This document shows positions 1 to 5,520 of a stretch of DNA of 5,520 bases, piece after piece (position 1 is the first letter of the stretch; each line of letters begins with the position of its first letter). A program made the translations under genes and the position numbers. Origin of the DNA: an uncultured Anaerosolibacter sp. (GTDB lineage: Bacteria; Bacillota_A; Clostridia; Peptostreptococcales; Thermotaleaceae); the NCBI GenBank assembly GCA_937948705.1, contig CALECF010000029.1, positions 1-5,520 of the forward strand, written 5' to 3'. The notes under the pieces were generated by a model. That model was not told where the DNA came from, ran no database searches, and worked only from the letters and a program-made list of their open reading frames with translations.

Positions 1-166
1 CATCAGATATTGGTTGTACAGATGTAGAACCTGCGATAACAACTTTTCCAGATAATTTTGTTTCTTCAGCGGGTTTTTGTTCCTCTACAGCTGGTTTTGA
101 ACCACAGCCCGCCAACATCGCAACAGCTAACATGAGTACTAGAGTAAGCGATAAAATCTTTTTCAT
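1..166 (-). CDS. pstS: PstS, phosphate ABC transporter substrate-binding lipoprotein (5' part only)
   Basis: This is the N-terminal 55 codons of a periplasmic-type phosphate-binding lipoprotein, cut by the window edge. Residues 1-20 are a lipoprotein signal peptide: Lys-Lys after Met, a hydrophobic core, then the lipobox LAGC with the lipidated cysteine at residue 21. A short Pro/Glu/Lys-rich linker follows. Residues 40-54 read GKVVIAGSTSVQPIS, the opening beta strand and phosphate-contacting GSTSVQP motif of the PstS family. In that family the protein captures inorganic phosphate outside the membrane and hands it to PstCA/PstB, whose genes should lie beyond the left edge. The ATG at 166 follows a G-rich site (177-181) about 10 nt upstream, an acceptable but not ideal spacing. 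An upstream PHO box supports the call. The first GSTSVQP motif is shared by a few related anion-binding proteins, but the promoter favours phosphate. Confidence 0.9.
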   Translation of the reverse strand, partial: MKKILSLTLVLMLAVAMLAGCGSKPAVEEQKPAEETKLSGKVVIAGSTSVQPISD

Positions 167-225
167 TTTAAAATTTCCCCCATTCATTATGTTTGTTCGT
201 CTAATTTGTACTACCCACATATATG

Positions 226-307: not shown

Positions 308-2071
308 TTATAATCCTTTTACTGTTTGGTAGATGTTTTCTATATTATCCTTCTGGGTCTCTAATAGTTGGAATTGATGCTGTACACCTTCCAATGAATC
401 TTTTGTACTATTGGCTACCTCGATGACCACCCCTGTGAATTGTTGAATAGATGAAATAAACTGTTGAATTCTTTCCGTTATACTTTGGGAATAAGCTCGA
501 ATTTGTTCTGTTTCATGATTTGTTTTCAGAGAATTCTCTGAAACCAGATCCGATAGTTCCTTTATATTGTTAATGTCTTTTACGATATCTCGGAAAACAT
601 CACTCACTTCATGGAAAATAGTAGTGATTTGTTTGGTTTCATTTACAGAAGAAACCGCTACCTGTGTACTCTGGTTTAATTGTTTTACAGTTATCGTGCT
701 TTGCCCTATCAGATCTTTAATAATTTTTTCAATTTCTTGAGCAAATTGAGAGGATTGGTTTGATAGATTTCTGATCTCCTCTGCTACCACCGTAAAGCCT
801 CTACCATATTCACCGGCTCTTGCTGCTTCGATGGAAGCATTTAATGCCAGTAAGTTTGTTTGTTTTGAAATATTGGTGATATCTGTCAAGATTTTATTAA
901 TGTTTCCAATCTTATCGGTCAATTGCACTACATTGTCTGATGCCTCGGTAATCTCTTCTAGGCTTCCGTGGAGACGTCCAACAATTCCCTCTACATCCTC
1001 TATTTTTCCCTCTAGCTTCTGGTTAAATAGACTAAGGTCCAACTGGGTTTTTTCTACAAAGGCAATGGTACTTTCAGTGGATTGTGTCAATGAATTATTT
1101 AACATACTTACATCGTTAATTCCCCTATTGACTTCCTCTACTGCTAGGGCAATTTCATCCGTACCTGATACGAGTATTTCAATATCTCTAGATAATTCAC
1201 TCAAGTGTTGATCTGACACGCCCGCATCAAGCTTAACATCCGACGCAATCTGAATCATTTCATCAGCTTCCATGACCAGTTCCTTCGTCAGCTGATGAAT
1301 GTGGTTTCGAAAGGATTTAACATTGGCGGTGATGGTGTATACAAAGTATAAAGTAATAAGGAGCGCAATTAAGGTTATGCTAATAGATAACTTAGCGTAA
1401 AGATCATTTTGTTGATGGATGTTATGTATAATAGGTGTAGTATAGCTTAGGGTATGTTGCTTCAATAGGTTAGCGGATTCTTTCATTTTCCCGATTCGAT
1501 CTAAGGATAGCAGTACAATCGTATCCTTCGTAGCCTGTGTTGTGTCCGCATAGGTAATAGGCAGTTTTTCTGCATATTCTTCTAATCTCACATAAATTTC
1601 TTCATATCGTTCAATTTCTTTGACTATTTCTACTGCTTCTATACCATTCGCATTTGTTCCTATGGTATTCTGTAGTGTTTCCAGACTTTCATGGATTTCT
1701 GTCAGCTTTTTTTTCACATCTCCAATGGAATAGTTACGTGTTAAGTAGCCTTGAAAAATAACATGAAATTGCAGGGTTTCCACTTGTATTTGTGAAGCAG
1801 TCATCACCTGGTTATTAATCAAACCCTCGACCTTTTCTAAATTGTTATTGGAAGTGTACAATGAAAAACTGGCACTGATGGAAACCATCAAAATTAGAAC
1901 AGTTAAGATAACAAATGCCCGATAGATCTGCTTATGAATCACTCTATTTTGGGATAATTTAACAGTTCTTTCTTGCTGCAGACCTGTTATTTTTCCCTTA
2001 AAGTAGGGAAATCTTTTAGTAAGCTGAATTAACTGTATTCTCTTTAGCAGCTTCTCTATTTTTTTCATCAT
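308..2071 (-). CDS. Methyl-accepting chemotaxis protein, membrane-bound, no evident HAMP domain
   Basis: A 587-residue chemoreceptor that should feed CheA/CheW and bias flagellar rotation. The order of parts is: a basic cytoplasmic N-terminus (1-50), TM1 (about 52-73), a helical external sensor region (74-226) that looks like a four-helix-bundle ligand domain, TM2 (about 227-248), then a long helical signalling domain. The conserved hairpin tip lies at about 399-440, including [17 protein letters not shown] and [15 protein letters not shown], the CheA/CheW contact region. The arms on either side of the tip are about 165 and 170 residues, so the coiled coil seems to run straight from TM2 to the C-terminus. 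No HAMP signature is visible after TM2, and there is no C-terminal CheR/CheB tether pentapeptide. The ATG at 2071 is preferred over an in-frame ATG at 2107 because GGAGG lies 9 nt before it. The ligand cannot be told from the sequence, and no terminator is seen after the stop. Confidence 0.93.
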
Positions 2072-2080
2072 TGTCACAAA

Positions 2081-2085
2081 CCTCC
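2081..2085 (-). promoter_or_regulatory. Shine-Dalgarno site that sets the chemoreceptor start
   Basis: GGAGG on the minus strand, 9 nt before ATG 2071 and 12 nt before ATG 2068. The more upstream in-frame ATG at 2107 has only A-rich sequence ahead of it and no ribosome site, so the 12 extra residues it would add are probably not made. Confidence 0.75.
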
Positions 2086-2152
2086 ATTTATCAATGTCCT
2101 TTTCCATTTTATGTGGTTCAGCGTTATCGAACTATCATAAAAGGTAAGAGAT

Positions 2153-2224: not shown

Positions 2225-2397
2225 ATGGGACAAAAAAAATACAATCCCTATGGACTAGATTTATACGATTTAGATAATCAAAAAAAGCGAATATAAAAAA
2301 ACAAGAAGAGATCATGGGTGAGATGATTCAAGAACTAAAAAGAATTGATGATAGCCTAGAAAATATCAAATCCACCATCAGTAATTTATTGAAATAA
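2225..2397 (+). CDS. Small charged coiled-coil-like protein, split by a -1 frame change at an A7 run
   Basis: I do not recognise this family. ATG 2225 follows GGAGG (2213-2217) with 7-nt spacing and opens a 23-codon reading frame (MGQKKYNPYGLDLYDLDNQ, then KKRI) ending at TAA 2294-2296. The -1 frame stays open across the junction and continues to TAA 2395-2397. That second part contains EIMGEMIQELKRIDDSLENI, a strongly amphipathic helix with coiled-coil spacing, followed by KSTISNLLK. The frames overlap at A7 (2280-2286) followed by G, which in frame reads CAA AAA AAG, the heptamer A-AAA-AAG. Shifting back one base there gives a 57-residue protein. Alternatives are a sequencing or real one-base deletion in the A run, or two separate peptides, the second from ATG 2314 with a weak AAGAAGAG site. 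It is divergent from the chemoreceptor gene and convergent with mgtE2. Confidence 0.55.
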
Positions 2398-2432: not shown

Positions 2433-3767
2433 CTATAATCCTAATATCCATGCAGCCATTGAAAAATAAACGACCAATGCCACTGCATCTACAATGGTTG
2501 TAATCAACGGACTAGCCATAATGGCGGGATCTAATTTCAAGCGCCTTGCAGCGATGGGTAAAGCTCCCCCTACAAGCTTTGCCAGTACAACGGTTACAAA
2601 CATTGTCACACAGACCGTAATGGCAATCTGTATGCTCACTTTTTCAATGTAGTAAATCCGTAAGAAGTTAATACCTGCCAAAGCAAGTCCTACGATCGTA
2701 CTTACTCTAAGTTCCTTCCATAATACCTTCAGTGTGTCTTCAAGCTTTATATCCCCTAAAGCCAAGCCCCGAATGACTAGGGTAGAAGACTGTGACCCTG
2801 CATTTCCTCCAGTATCCATCAACATAGGAATAAAGGCAGCCAGTATTACAACCGCAGAAAGTACATCCTCGAATCTACGAATAATATTTCCAGTAAAGGT
2901 AGCTGAAATCATCAAAATCAATAACCAGGCTATCCTATGCTTTGCCAGGGTTAAAACAGGGGTTTCCAAATATTCCTCTTCCGAAGGGGCCATGGCAGCC
3001 ATTCTTTGGAAGTCCTCTGTGTTTTCTTGTTCGATAACATCTACGATATCATCTATGGTGATGATCCCTGTTAACCTTTCCTCTTTATCTACTACAGGTA
3101 TGGCCATCAGGTCATACTTTTTGAACAGATGGGCGATGGTCTCCTGATCATCATGGGTATGGGCATAGATCACATCTATATTCATCATCTCGCCTACTGT
3201 TTCTTTCTCATCATGGGTGACCAATTTACGAAGAGATATAATCCCTTCCAGCTTTCGATTGGCGTCGGTCACATAGCAGGAATAGACTGTTTCTTTATCT
3301 AATGCAATACGCTTGATATACTCTAGCGCCTCCCGTAAAGTCATTTCCTTCTTTAAACCAACGTATTCGATCGTCATCAAGCTTCCTGCAGAATTTTCAG
3401 GATAATTTAAAAACTGATTAATCAGAATTCGTTCTTCTTCCTTTGTGTTTTTTAGTATCTTTTTCACAATACTAGCAGGCATTTCCTCCAAAAAGTCAAT
3501 CATATCGTCAAAATATAATTCATCCATAATATGCTTGATTTCACGGTCTGTAATGGCATCGATGATCGCCAACTGCTGTTCATTGGACAGATAGGCAAAA
3601 ACTTCTACAGCCGTATCCTTGGGCAACATACGAAAAAGAATAATGGCTTCATTTCTATCGAATTCTTCCAGAATCTCAGCTATATCTACTACATTCAAAT
3701 TCATTACTTCTCTTCTGGCATCACCAAATCTTTTTTCTTGCATCAATTCTATGATTCTTTCTTTCAT
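2433..3767 (-). CDS. mgtE: MgtE-family magnesium channel/transporter (second copy)
   Basis: A 444-residue MgtE, the usual family length. It is a homodimeric Mg2+-selective channel in the cell membrane whose cytosolic domains sense internal Mg2+ and close the pore when it is high. The helical N domain spans about 1-125. The conserved YPENSAGSLMT (122-132) opens the CBS pair, which runs to about 250 and includes GIITIDDIVDVIEQE. A connecting plug helix follows, and the five-helix membrane domain begins at about 278. Pore-motif MDTGGNAGSQSSTLVIRG (317-334) and KLDPAIMASP...TTIVDAV (411-429, with the family Asp at 427) are intact. The translated frame can be extended to TTG 3773, but that codon touches the Shine-Dalgarno site, so ATG 3767 is chosen. 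It has its own leader ORF but no M-box and no promoter that I can see, so it is probably co-transcribed with the upstream mgtE. The two copies align without gaps, about 326 of 444 residues identical. Confidence 0.96.
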   Translation of the reverse strand: MKERIIELMQEKRFGDARREVMNLNVVDIAEILEEFDRNEAIILFRMLPKDTAVEVFAYLSNEQQLAIIDAITDREIKHIMDELYFDDMIDFLEEMPASIVKKILKNTKEEERILINQFLNYPENSAGSLMTIEYVGLKKEMTLREALEYIKRIALDKETVYSCYVTDANRKLEGIISLRKLVTHDEKETVGEMMNIDVIYAHTHDDQETIAHLFKKYDLMAIPVVDKEERLTGIITIDDIVDVIEQENTEDFQRMAAMAPSEEEYLETPVLTLAKHRIAWLLILMISATFTGNIIRRFEDVLSAVVILAAFIPMLMDTGGNAGSQSSTLVIRGLALGDIKLEDTLKVLWKELRVSTIVGLALAGINFLRIYYIEKVSIQIAITVCVTMFVTVVLAKLVGGALPIAARRLKLDPAIMASPLITTIVDAVALVVYFSMAAWILGL

Positions 3768-3773
3768 GGGCAA

Positions 3774-3780
3774 CCCCTCC
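3774..3780 (-). promoter_or_regulatory. mgtE2 Shine-Dalgarno site abutting the leader ORF stop
   Basis: GGAGGGG, 6 nt before ATG 3767 and directly next to the upstream TTG codon, which excludes TTG as the start. The leader ORF stop TAA (3783-3781) is contiguous with it, reading TAAGGAGGGG. This geometry allows a ribosome finishing the leader to restart on mgtE2, or to block it while paused. Confidence 0.8.
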
Positions 3781-3882
3781 TTAGAAGAACCGCCATCCCT
3801 CCATCTGAATGGTTATGGTTCTTAAAATAACCTTTTTTATTTTTTCTGTCCACCTGGGTACGGGACTAGAATCCATAACCAT
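3781..3882 (-). CDS. Leader peptide ORF 2 ahead of mgtE2 (33 codons, MgtL-like beginning)
   Basis: A 33-codon ORF fills most of the gap between the two mgtE genes. It begins MVMDSSPVPRWTEKIKK and ends GWRFF-TAA on the mgtE2 Shine-Dalgarno site. ATG 3876 (MDSSPVPR) has the better ribosome site, AGGTGG 8 nt upstream; ATG 3882 is two codons earlier. The start matches leader ORF 1 ahead of mgtE1: over 34 aligned bases there are four differences, three of them in third codon positions, and the peptide core MVMDSSPxPR is kept. Further on, the sequences diverge except for a shared Thr-Ile-Thr-Ile that coincides with an RNA stem arm. The Pro-x-Pro-Arg start resembles MgtL, which controls mgtA in enterobacteria. 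Translation is an inference, and the conservation could also come from RNA structure or gene duplication. Confidence 0.5.
   Translation of the reverse strand: MVMDSSPVPRWTEKIKKVILRTITIQMEGWRFF
3785..3882 (-). promoter_or_regulatory. Two-state RNA leader of mgtE2
   Basis: On the minus strand ATGGTTATGG (3882-3873) is perfectly complementary to CCATAACCAT (3818-3809). The stem can extend inward by TTCT/AGAA past a bulged A. That stem covers both candidate start codons of leader ORF 2. The 3' arm can instead form a hairpin against downstream sequence: AAGAA (3823-3819) with TTCTT (3789-3785), CCAT (3818-3815) with ATGG (3796-3793), and CCAT (3812-3809) with ATGG (3804-3801). It ends 2 nt before the AAGGAGGGG ribosome site. 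The two folds share the CCATAACCAT arm and exclude each other. No T tract follows, so this looks like translational rather than terminator control. Confidence 0.55.
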
Positions 3883-3907
3883 CACCACCTTTCATATCTA
3901 AACAAAA

Positions 3908-5245
3908 TCATATACCTATAATTTTACTGGCTAATGAAAAATACACAATTAGGGTTACTGCATCCACAAGGGTTGTAATTATTGGACTGGCCATAATGGC
4001 TGGGTCCAGTTTTAAACGCTGCGCTATAATCGGTAATATCCCTCCAACCAGCTTGGCAAACACAACAGTAACAAAAAGGGTTCCACAAACAGTCAAAGAT
4101 ATATATAAACTGATTCCCTCAAAAAAATAGATCCGCAAAAAATGAAATCCAGCTAACAGCGCACCTACTACTGCACTTACACGGAATTCCTTCCAAACAA
4201 CCCGCAATACATCTCCGATTTCAATTTGTCCCAGTGCCAATCCACGAATAACCAATGTAGAGGACTGTGCACCAGCATTCCCTCCTGTATTCATCAGCAT
4301 GGGAATAAATGCAGCAAGTAAAACGACTGAAGAAAGTACGTCCTCGAATCTTCGAATAATTTTCCCGGAAAAAGTGGCAGAAATCATCAGAATTAAAAGC
4401 CAGGTAATCCTATTCTTCGCCAGTGTTACAACACTGGTTGACAGATATTCAATTTCTGAAGGGATAATTGCAGCCATCTTTTGAAAGTCTTCTGTATCCT
4501 CTTGCTCAATAACGTCTACAATATCGTCAATCGTTATAATGCCGGTCAATCGTTGATCCTTATCTACCACTGGAACAATCATGAGATCATATTTTTTAAA
4601 CATTTGTGCGATTTTCTCCTGATCGTCATGGGTATGGGCATAAATCACATCTGTTTCCATAAGTTCTCCGATGGCCGTGGATTCATCACTGATAACCAGC
4701 TTTCGAAGAGAGATACTTCCCTCCAACTGCTGATTGTCATCGGCAACATAACAGGTATAAATGGTTTCCTTGTCAATTCCTGTCCGTTTAATGTAGGTCA
4801 AAGCCTGATCTACGGTCATTTCTTTTTGTAGCCCTACATATTCGATGGTCATTAGACTTCCCGCGGAGTTTTCAGGATAATTTAAAAACTGATTGATAAG
4901 AATTCTTTCTTCTTCTCTTGTATGCTTAAGAATCCTCTTCACCACACTGGCAGGCATTTCCTCAAACATGTCTATCATATCATCAAAATATAATTCATCA
5001 ATAATGTGCTTGATCTCTTTGTCAGTAATTCTATTAATAATATCAATTTGCTGTTCATTGGATAGATATGCAAAAACATCTACAGCAATATCCTTAGGCA
5101 GCATACGAAAAAGTATAATCGAGTGGTCCGCTTCCAATTCACCTAAAAGCTCAGCAATATCTACCTCGTTTAATTCAATAATTTCTTTGCGGGCTTCGCC
5201 AAACCTTTTGGCTTCCAGCAATGTAAGGATCAATTCCTTCATCAT
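3908..5245 (-). CDS. mgtE: MgtE-family magnesium channel/transporter (first copy)
   Basis: A 445-residue MgtE Mg2+ channel. The helical N domain is at about 1-126, then YPENSAGSLMT (123-133), two CBS domains to about 251 with GIITIDDIVDVIEQE, a linker/plug helix, and a five-helix pore domain from about 279. The pore motif is MNTGGNAGAQSSTLVIRG (318-335), and KLDPAIMASP with TTLVDAV carries the family Asp at 428. The start is ATG 5245, or the adjacent ATG 5242 that aligns with the second copy; AAAGGAGG (5259-5252) lies 6 nt upstream. It stands first in the operon behind an M-box riboswitch, a terminator and leader ORF 1, so expression should rise when Mg2+ is scarce. Compared with the second copy, differences cluster in the first 40 residues and in the loop at about 340-385. 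The NTGGN versus DTGGN change at the pore motif may alter ion handling, but this is not established. Confidence 0.96.
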   Translation of the reverse strand: MMKELILTLLEAKRFGEARKEIIELNEVDIAELLGELEADHSIILFRMLPKDIAVDVFAYLSNEQQIDIINRITDKEIKHIIDELYFDDMIDMFEEMPASVVKRILKHTREEERILINQFLNYPENSAGSLMTIEYVGLQKEMTVDQALTYIKRTGIDKETIYTCYVADDNQQLEGSISLRKLVISDESTAIGELMETDVIYAHTHDDQEKIAQMFKKYDLMIVPVVDKDQRLTGIITIDDIVDVIEQEDTEDFQKMAAIIPSEIEYLSTSVVTLAKNRITWLLILMISATFSGKIIRRFEDVLSSVVLLAAFIPMLMNTGGNAGAQSSTLVIRGLALGQIEIGDVLRVVWKEFRVSAVVGALLAGFHFLRIYFFEGISLYISLTVCGTLFVTVVFAKLVGGILPIIAQRLKLDPAIMASPIITTLVDAVTLIVYFSLASKIIGI

Positions 5246-5351
5246 TCAATGCCTCCTTTGAAGAGCCATTCAACCACAAGATGGTTATGGTTTCTTCACT
5301 ATTAATTTTTCTAGCCTGACGCCTGGGCAAAGGACTCGAATCCATAACCAT
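5175..5351 (-). CDS. Leader peptide ORF 1 ahead of mgtE1 (58 codons, MgtL-like beginning)
   Basis: A reading frame begins at ATG 5351 (MVMDSSPLPRRQARKI) after AAGGA 5 nt upstream. In-frame ATGs at 5357 and 5345 are alternatives. It does not stop before mgtE1 but runs out of frame 71 nt into it, ending at TGA 5175-5177. The first 14 or so residues are the conserved part shared with leader ORF 2. MDSSPLPRRQARK recalls the enterobacterial Mg2+-sensing peptide MgtL ([17 protein letters not shown], from memory) in its acidic start, alternating prolines and basic tail. In MgtL, ribosomes become unstable on this stretch in low Mg2+, and this changes mgtA expression. Here a ribosome that falls off early would leave the mgtE1 start free, while one that continues would traverse it. 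Function is inferred, and the residues after about 20 may be meaningless overlap. Confidence 0.5.
   Translation of the reverse strand: MVMDSSPLPRRQARKINSEETITILWLNGSSKEALNDEGIDPYIAGSQKVWRSPQRNY
5260..5351 (-). promoter_or_regulatory. Two-state RNA leader of mgtE1
   Basis: It has the same architecture as ahead of mgtE2. ATGGTTATGG (5351-5342), holding two candidate leader start codons, pairs perfectly with CCATAACCAT (5290-5281), with TTC/GAA extending the stem across an A-A mismatch. The same 3' arm can join a competing hairpin: GAAGA (5297-5293) with TCTTC (5264-5260), CCAT (5290-5287) with ATGG (5269-5266), and ACCA (5285-5282) with TGGT (5276-5273). That hairpin ends exactly where the AAAGGAGG ribosome site begins. 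The hairpin's downstream arm differs in sequence between the two leaders yet still pairs, which suggests selection for the fold. Confidence 0.55.
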
Positions 5352-5380
5352 CACCATCCTTACATATATATTGGAAACGC

Positions 5381-5407
5381 AAAAAAATCTCTACCCAACA
5401 GTAGAGA
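5381..5407 (-). terminator. M-box expression-platform terminator
   Basis: On the minus strand TCTCTAC (5407-5401), a 6-nt loop and GTAGAGA (5394-5388) form a 7-bp stem followed by seven T (5387-5381). Sitting about 20 nt after the aptamer and before the leader ORF, it is the expected Mg2+-bound OFF state: termination when Mg2+ is plentiful, read-through into mgtE when it is scarce. Confidence 0.85.
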
Positions 5408-5417
5408 GAATCAATAA

Positions 5418-5520
5418 TCCTTCTATGTTGAGCTTTAGCACTAGAGAGCTTTGACCTTTCGAAGTCAGCTACATTAAATATAACCTTCACGATTATATCT
5501 GTTAACCACATTGGCGTCTC
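5418..5520 (-). promoter_or_regulatory. M-box (ykoK) Mg2+ riboswitch aptamer, 3' portion
   Basis: Several strongly conserved M-box blocks appear in order on the minus strand: GAGACGCCAAT (5520-5510), GTTAACAGA (5506-5498), TTTAATG (5478-5472) and AGTGCTAAAGCTCAAC (5442-5427), then AGAAGG of the closing P1 region. The 5' half, including the usual GTTAGGTGAGGCTCC block, lies beyond the right edge. M-box RNAs bind several Mg2+ ions and control Mg2+ transporter genes, which fits the mgtE genes downstream. The motifs are from memory of the family consensus. Confidence 0.88.

Follow-up and report, generated by a model that had tools for sequence, protein, structure and literature searches.

A conserved leader peptide ahead of mgtE and other magnesium transporter genes in Clostridia as a putative translational attenuator

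We detected a conserved leader open reading frame (ORF) ahead of mgtE in Clostridia, the product of which usually begins M-[DE]-x-x-P; the leader is found ahead of corA and of a PRC/MgtE_N/Nramp operon as well, a wider range than first seen. Both coding selection on this ORF and two predicted RNA helices, 1:2 and 2:3, are supported by comparison of related leaders. We consider it likely, at a probability of roughly 0.7, that the arrangement constitutes a translational attenuator with the nascent leader peptide as its sensor. By analogy, we infer that what the leader senses is Mg2+, and these Clostridia probably use the translating ribosome as a magnesium gauge.

The window analyzed here, a stretch of 5,520 nt from an uncultured Anaerosolibacter sp., encodes two MgtE proteins on its reverse strand, each preceded by a leader of its own. 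An M-box (Mg2+) riboswitch aptamer, of which the 3' two thirds are present, is cut by the window edge (5413..5520(-); RF00380, 57.2 bits, E = 7.8e-11), and its intrinsic terminator (5388..5407(-)) consists of an 8-pair stem (5407-5388) and the T-run TTTTTTT. Between this terminator and mgtE1 (3908..5245(-), 445 aa, start at 5245; PF01769, PF03448 and CBS domains; 92% identical to its Geosporobacter ferrireducens homologue in a protein similarity search) lie the leader codons MVMDSSPLPRRQARK (5351-5307(-)), as the original prediction had stated. A length of 13–17 codons does not hold for the leader, since leader ORF 1 (MDSSPLPRRQARKINSEETITILW...; 5175..5345(-)) comprises 56 codons plus a stop, running from the ATG at 5345 to 5175 and overlapping the start of mgtE1 out of frame. 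Additional in-frame ATGs are found upstream at 5351 and 5357. Because these are missing from several relatives (L005, L115, L117, L118, L121 and L126-L129 in an alignment of 37 leaders, A1), whereas a start codon preceding Asp is retained, the start was taken as 5345.

Four regions make up the putative attenuator 1. Region 1 (GAUGGUUAUGG, 5342..5352(-)), placed from alignment A1, covers the leader start codon and has 5280-5290 as its partner; region 2 (CCAUAACCAUC, 5280..5290(-)), placed by helix tests and folding, is common to helices 1:2 and 2:3; region 3 (AUGGCUCUU, 5261..5269(-)) is predicted by folding to pair either with region 2 (2:3, -13.3 kcal/mol) or with the mgtE1 Shine-Dalgarno (SD) sequence (3:4, -8.4 kcal/mol); and region 4 is this SD itself (AAGGAGG, 5252..5258(-)), recognized from sequence and folding. 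The second leader in the window (MDSSPVPRWTEKIKK.., 3876-3781(-)) precedes mgtE2 (2433..3767(-), 444 aa, ATG at 3767; PF01769, PF03448 and CBS domains), a gene that lacks an M-box immediately upstream. This leader ORF 2 (MDSSPVPRWTEKIKKVILRTITIQMEGWRFF, 3781..3876(-)) encodes 31 aa beginning MDSSPVPRW, and its stop codon overlaps the mgtE2 SD (UAAGGAGG; AAGGAGG at 3776..3782(-), from sequence and folding). Attenuator 2 has its region 1 at 3873..3883(-) (from alignment A1), region 2 (CCAUAACCAUU) at 3808..3818(-) (from helix tests) and region 3 (GCGGUUCUU) at 3785..3793(-), with folding energies of -13.2 kcal/mol for 2:3 and -11.6 kcal/mol for 3:4. The string TGGTTATGGATTCNAGTCC occurs in two copies in the window, a result obtained in 0 of 200 shuffles. 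Elsewhere in the window, two small ORFs, MGQKKYNPYGLDLYDLDNQKKRI (with a good SD) and MGEMIQELKRIDDSLENIKSTISNLLK, were spotted by eye at 2225-2397(+), between a divergent chemotaxis receptor gene and the convergent mgtE2; the former encodes a methyl-accepting chemotaxis protein (308-2107(-), PF00015), and the start of a lipoprotein resembling a phosphate-binding protein, also assigned by eye, is located at 2-220(-).

The claim that a leader ORF under coding selection is conserved ahead of clostridial mgtE is upheld by the codon pattern, the open frame and a survey of the class. Among 41 leaders from loci gathered without the motif, themselves chosen by the pattern M[DE]x(1-3)P, which fixes the start codon, D/E2 and Pro in advance, the in-frame BLOSUM score was 1.26, compared with 0.69 in permuted columns (sd 0.12, maximum 0.96). 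This score exceeded all 200 column permutations. The share of synonymous changes in the same leaders was 0.32 in frame versus 0.12 and 0.04 out of frame; third codon positions were the most variable, and Leu6 and Pro7 were each found in 26 of the 41. In a broader set of 88 leaders (motif-chosen with no length filter; start codon, D/E2 and P5 present by construction, and one row, LELLP, probably spurious), 58 had a leader frame without a stop between codon 9 and the transporter SD, compared with 11 for the +1 frame and 7 for the +2 frame, and the corresponding counts among 67 non-redundant leaders were 42, 9 and 5. Because the leader frame stays open to the SD, the pattern suggests that a ribosome passing the N-terminal codons is meant to travel regions 2 and 3 up to the transporter SD.

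The same leaders delimit the part of the peptide that is likely to matter. Resemblance to the start of the enterobacterial leader MgtL had been proposed on the basis of an acidic second residue, prolines and the string PLPRR; the acidic residue 2 and Pro hold across relatives, while PLPRR does not (Arg8 in 14/88, with Leu6 in 41/88 and Pro7 in 45/88), and by sequence comparison the conserved core is usually M-[DE]-x-x-P, with PLPRR a local feature. Most leaders have one acidic residue near the start, and a full M[DE]PDP start was seen only in L331 (MDPDPGSS). Some small peptides, such as MgtR and MgtS, act in trans on a transporter or the membrane, and many of the leaders here, at around 30 residues, are long enough to recall them; however, the peptides diverge after their first 5–7 residues and frequently overlap the SD or transporter codons, and we consider an action in trans extremely unlikely.

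Whether so short a resemblance to MgtL could have arisen by chance in one genome was a concern already with the original prediction. MgtE genes were gathered without the motif, as 49 loci by protein similarity and as PF01769 matches in 22 genomes, and further motif-free PF01769 sampling took in 128 class genomes, 82 of them with and 46 without a match, and all 16 genomes of the family. The class survey, the count of which leaves out four partial matches at contig ends, one match below the cut-off and 8 alignments beginning after residue 60, returned an SD-led upstream ORF (uORF) starting M[DE] at 43 of 90 distinct mgtE starts, compared with a mean of 0.84 and a maximum of 5 in 200 shuffles; a uORF of the form M[DE]x(1-3)P was present at 24 of the 90 (shuffles: mean 0.10, maximum 2), and 47 of the 90 had no M[DE] uORF by the criteria used. 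Residue 2 of the 68 SD-led uORFs in this survey was D in 37 and E in 6, compared with 7.3% D and 8.4% E at 344 other gene starts from the same loci, a control that still included a few MgtE genes; these control starts yielded 9 uORFs of this kind, all 9 of which preceded MgtE genes overlooked by the filter. Close relatives of the window genes are more uniform: 19 MgtE genes, counting the two in the window, share 65% or more identity with MgtE1, and an M[DE]xxP leader precedes 18 of them; the nineteenth, L179, has VDSSSIPRR. Together with the codon pattern and the open frame, the class survey and the gene-start control refute a chance likeness, the probability of which we regard as negligible, and the resemblance is accepted as lying beyond chance.

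The full table of SD-led uORFs covers 171 distinct mgtE starts, with motif-found loci included, and holds other leaders of note. A distant MgtE paralog about 30% identical to MgtE1 (L181 and L182, in genomes G089 and G132) follows a leader beginning MDSGPYAS.., and both genomes additionally carry a leader ahead of a corA gene. A second type of SD-led mgtE leader was observed in other Clostridia (L159, L215, L246, L218, L223, L166, L193, L204 and others), with starts such as MDAGSS, MDADSS, MDTADS or similar, no Pro near the start and, often, AGT Ser codons together with a CGA Arg codon. A helix resembling 1:2 (z < -2) was predicted in 10 of 19 M[DE] leaders without a near-start Pro. The MDAGSS-type leaders may constitute a further family of Mg2+ leaders, or they may represent some other RNA motif.

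Fold tests were run on 52 leaders with an ORF of at least 20 codons, 42 of which are present in the motif-free loci; 42 of the 52 passed the peptide filter, and the omission of L008, L120, L123, L147 and L216 for length gave the 37 leaders of alignment A1. In helix 1:2, which RNAalifold recovers unprompted, the leader start region pairs with a stretch approximately 55-80 nt downstream. Across A1, 94.6% of its cells were paired and 7 of 11 pairs had double changes (41 double-change cells versus 15 when shuffled), pairing fell to 20-63% when the helix was slid by 1-3 columns, and the pair formed by the first base of the start codon was A-U in 24 rows, G-C in 4 and G-U in 7. For helix 2:3, 79.3% of cells were paired, with double changes in 8 of 9 pairs (38 cells versus 16 when shuffled). 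The 1:2 helix and the 2:3 hairpin each had z < -2 in 47 of the 52 leaders. By these comparisons the two predicted helices are conserved and covarying, and they are mutually exclusive because both use region 2.

The SD-masking helix 3:4 is weakly supported. Covariation in A1, which is poorly aligned around the SD, lends it no support: 63.5% of its cells were paired (shuffles, 65.4%), and it did better when slid by +1 to +3. Folding does form 3:4 in both window copies, each time weaker than 2:3. The probability that the SD is paired was 0.64 with region 2 blocked and 0.36 with region 2 free when region 2 was defined from the 2:3 hairpin, a small excess over the 0.55 obtained with a shuffled region 3; with a longer region 2 taken from the 1:2 duplex, the values in 45 leaders were 0.50 blocked and 0.47 free, that is, no switch, so that the result depends on how region 2 is defined. 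In local folds the SD was less often paired than in shuffles (0.48 versus 0.60), which we read as the 2:3 hairpin winning.

Conserved and covarying helices, with region 1 overlapping the start codon, would also be expected of an element acting through RNA only, such as a riboswitch or protein-binding RNA not described before, with the ORF arising as a by-product of conserved RNA letters. Against this, codons 2-7 lie outside both helices except for the first G of codon 2 and vary most at their third positions, the in-frame substitution score beats every column permutation, acidic residues at position 2 are far above chance in the motif-free survey, and the path to the SD is open in frame 0 in far more leaders than in either of the other frames. 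Rfam matches covering the leader were likewise not found, with no match at E ≤1 over 5240-5380 and none covering the leader at gathering scores in the locus scans. On the codon pattern and the open frame, we reject an RNA-only element as very unlikely. Besides the M-box, Rfam matches in the window were limited to sub-threshold SNORD20, S15 and Histone3; the last of these (3793-3837(-)) overlaps attenuator 2 at chance level (19.1 bits, gathering score 34) and was rejected as a known Rfam RNA.

A covariance model of the leader and the 1:2 helix, blind to the gene downstream, was used to search genomes from the order (247) and from the phylum (299). At E ≤0.0032 it returned 47 matches in the order, 16 of which were model members. 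Of the 31 non-members, 30 precede a Mg2+ transporter gene, namely 27 mgtE (one fragmentary) and 3 corA, two of the latter already known before the model run; downstream genes were named mostly from their translated starts, ten by Pfam and many also by blastp. In all 31, Asp or Glu comes directly after an SD-led start, and 28 have Pro5, the exceptions being L302 (VDSSSIP), L308 (MEPDSLV) and L340 (MEGDSYV), which count against a universal Pro5. No Mg2+ transporter gene follows L351 and L352 (E 0.006-0.008), and inspection covered the order matches apart from twelve at E ≥0.0288 and one in genome G242 (0.022). Among the 15 non-member matches in the phylum, all 9 at E <0.02 and one at 0.044 precede an mgtE, corA or PRC gene, and five at E 0.029-0.081 do not. 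Two matches stand by themselves: L303 is an orphan leader (MDSGPIPK..) that matches the whole model with no transporter gene downstream, and in L337 the leader MDSSPLPL.. lies ahead of an mgtE that reads as fragments.

The genes found downstream of the leader thus include mgtE, corA and PRC/MgtE_N/Nramp. The PRC gene is fused to MgtE_N-CBS in L321 and L358 and separate in L357, and it heads an operon with an Nramp gene in all three extended loci; control of mgtE-nramp operons by an M-box has been reported in the available text of one study (PMC4072509), as has transport of Mg2+ by Nramp relatives of this kind from C. acetobutylicum. Leaders ahead of corA were found in L107, L108, L258, L324 (MDPSPRQ, read by eye) and L348, and a survey of 29 corA loci found a leader only at L258, L287 and L288. 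Two scans of 20 loci each placed an M-box upstream of the leader in 12 and 8, and in a further set of 20 loci, consisting mostly of MDAGSS-type leaders, one was found in 3; the remaining 8 and 12 loci of the first two scans had a leader with no M-box within the locus covered. Because the M-box is found upstream in only part of the scanned loci, the leader is a separate module, often stacked with it.

In the layout on which our proposed mechanism builds, region 1 holds the leader start codon, region 2 lies inside the ORF, region 3 just before the SD, and region 4 is the SD. At low Mg2+, a ribosome would slow or drop off past Met-Asp/Glu-x-x-Pro, starting ribosomes would occupy region 1, and 2:3 would pair, leaving the SD free and the transporter to be made. 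With ample Mg2+, the ribosome would continue across regions 2 and 3 until it met a stop codon at the transporter SD or beyond, 1:2 would close behind it, and region 3 would pair with the SD, turning translation off. In the window, such an attenuator would come into play once the M-box has made its decision, separately for mgtE1 and mgtE2. The anatomy points to translation as the level of output; the Mg2+ response, the pause site and the sign of control we infer by analogy.

The positions of the leader stops lend themselves to a simpler reading as well. In 51 of the 88 leaders they are located no more than 25 nt upstream of the transporter start, and in 14 they are at or past it, as would suit translational coupling, in which leader ribosomes would open an SD hairpin, stop at a site such as UAAGGAGG and restart on the transporter. 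Nonetheless, the stop comes earlier in 23 of the 88, coupling has no need for covarying helices 1:2 and 2:3, and early drop-off would then lower rather than raise expression, the wrong sign for a Mg2+ importer; we judge coupling quite unlikely. A leader-peptide attenuator that reads another signal, such as charged tRNA-Pro, EF-P or ABC-F capacity or general ribosome fitness, is in our estimate unlikely, if less so. A model for it exists in the Salmonella mgtP leader, said in the available text to read tRNA-Pro (PMC8092293), EF-P and ABC-F proteins have been reported to act on such peptides (PMC11282234; PMC11611912, as far as their available text goes), and Leu6 and Pro7 recur in about half of the 88 leaders. 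However, many leaders have a single Pro while residue 2 is acidic, and the targets are unrelated families of Mg2+ transporters, often under an M-box. A nascent-peptide attenuator responding to Mg2+ remains the reading that we favor.

Its closest parallel in RNA layout is Salmonella MgtQ, for which mutations were used to test the alternative 1:2/3:4 and 2:3 logic with Asp2/Glu5, according to the available text of that study (PMC8092293). There, slow or aborted uORF translation is held to keep region 1 open, favor 2:3 and free the mgtB SD, and loss of the start codon or Asp/Glu-to-Ala changes lower mgtB (PMC8092293, same text). Shared with the clostridial leaders are a short SD-led uORF with Asp2 ahead of a Mg2+ transporter gene (mgtB), translational control, alternative stems and a 2:3 stem more stable than 3:4 (reported there as -16.4 versus -12.26; -13.3 versus -8.4 in attenuator 1). 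MgtQ differs in having 8 codons as reported, with Glu5, and in lying in the mgtC-mgtB gap, whereas the clostridial leaders usually have around 30 codons and Pro5, place region 1 at the leader start and serve MgtE, CorA or Nramp-operon targets, in another phylum. The Pro codon of MgtQ is described as working via stem 1:2 and not as a residue (PMC8092293, available text), which counts against a role for Pro5.

The N-terminus, by contrast, is MgtL-like. The M-[DE]-x-x-P start is in the same register as in E. coli MgtL (MEPDP..), likewise ahead of a Mg2+ importer gene; Pro-Leu-Pro is present in about half of the leaders, followed by basic residues in some. On MgtL, ribosomes are reported to be lost on EPDP in low Mg2+, and clear EttA dependence needed at least DPEE, which counts against leaders with a single acidic residue (PMC11282234, in the available text). 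MgtL also differs in its Rho-dependent termination (PMC11282234, available text), its target, the P-type ATPase gene mgtA, and the position of PLPRR, two residues later than in the window leader, and most clostridial leaders lack its second acidic residue. The leader was not filed as MgtL because the downstream gene and, by anatomy, the level of control differ; its RNA layout is closer to MgtQ than to MgtL. In translational attenuators of the erm type, too, a stalled leader ribosome frees a downstream SD by re-pairing of stems, although the signal is an antibiotic and the targets are resistance genes. The M-box shares Mg2+ control of the same genes and in the window lies upstream of the leader, but it is a metal-binding RNA, whereas the leader lies downstream of it and occurs also at loci where no M-box was found.

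The original prediction knew of no such leader for mgtE, and none appeared among the matches listed in a literature search the scope of which stops short of preprints and most subscription journals; a paper treating mgtE and mgtL together was not found within that same scope. As far as their available text goes, the nearest published cases come from two studies (PMC12810186; PMC11109978). In Mycobacterium tuberculosis, a conserved uORF with a conserved Pro near its N-terminus lies between an M-box and its operon, but the available text describes it as a regulated target, specific to mycobacteria and of unclear role (PMC12810186). A comparison between it and the clostridial leaders may be worthwhile. 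The Thioalkalivibrio mgtE motif, which the available text lists as a strong candidate riboswitch from a single genus, resembles the present case as a structured mgtE leader with the SD in a stem (PMC11109978); as a single-genus riboswitch candidate with no leader peptide described in that text, it was set aside.

We lean, by a little, towards a more general reading in which the M-[DE]-x-x-P start would be a general Mg2+ gauge built on the ribosome, with separate origins in Clostridia and Enterobacteria, driving unrelated transporter families (MgtE, CorA and Nramp-type), in many operons behind an M-box, where the RNA would report on free Mg2+ and the nascent chain on the stability of the ribosome. 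If the proposed mechanism is true, sensing of Mg2+ through the nascent chain, familiar from a handful of enterobacterial leaders, would be common in another branch of bacteria, and the same leader principle would serve several unrelated families of importers. Dozens of natural variants would then point to the key residues, D/E2 and usually P5 rather than PLPRR, and the mechanism would be testable in Gram-positive ribosomes. Two Mg2+ sensors, one made of RNA and the other the ribosome, would apparently act in series on one mRNA.
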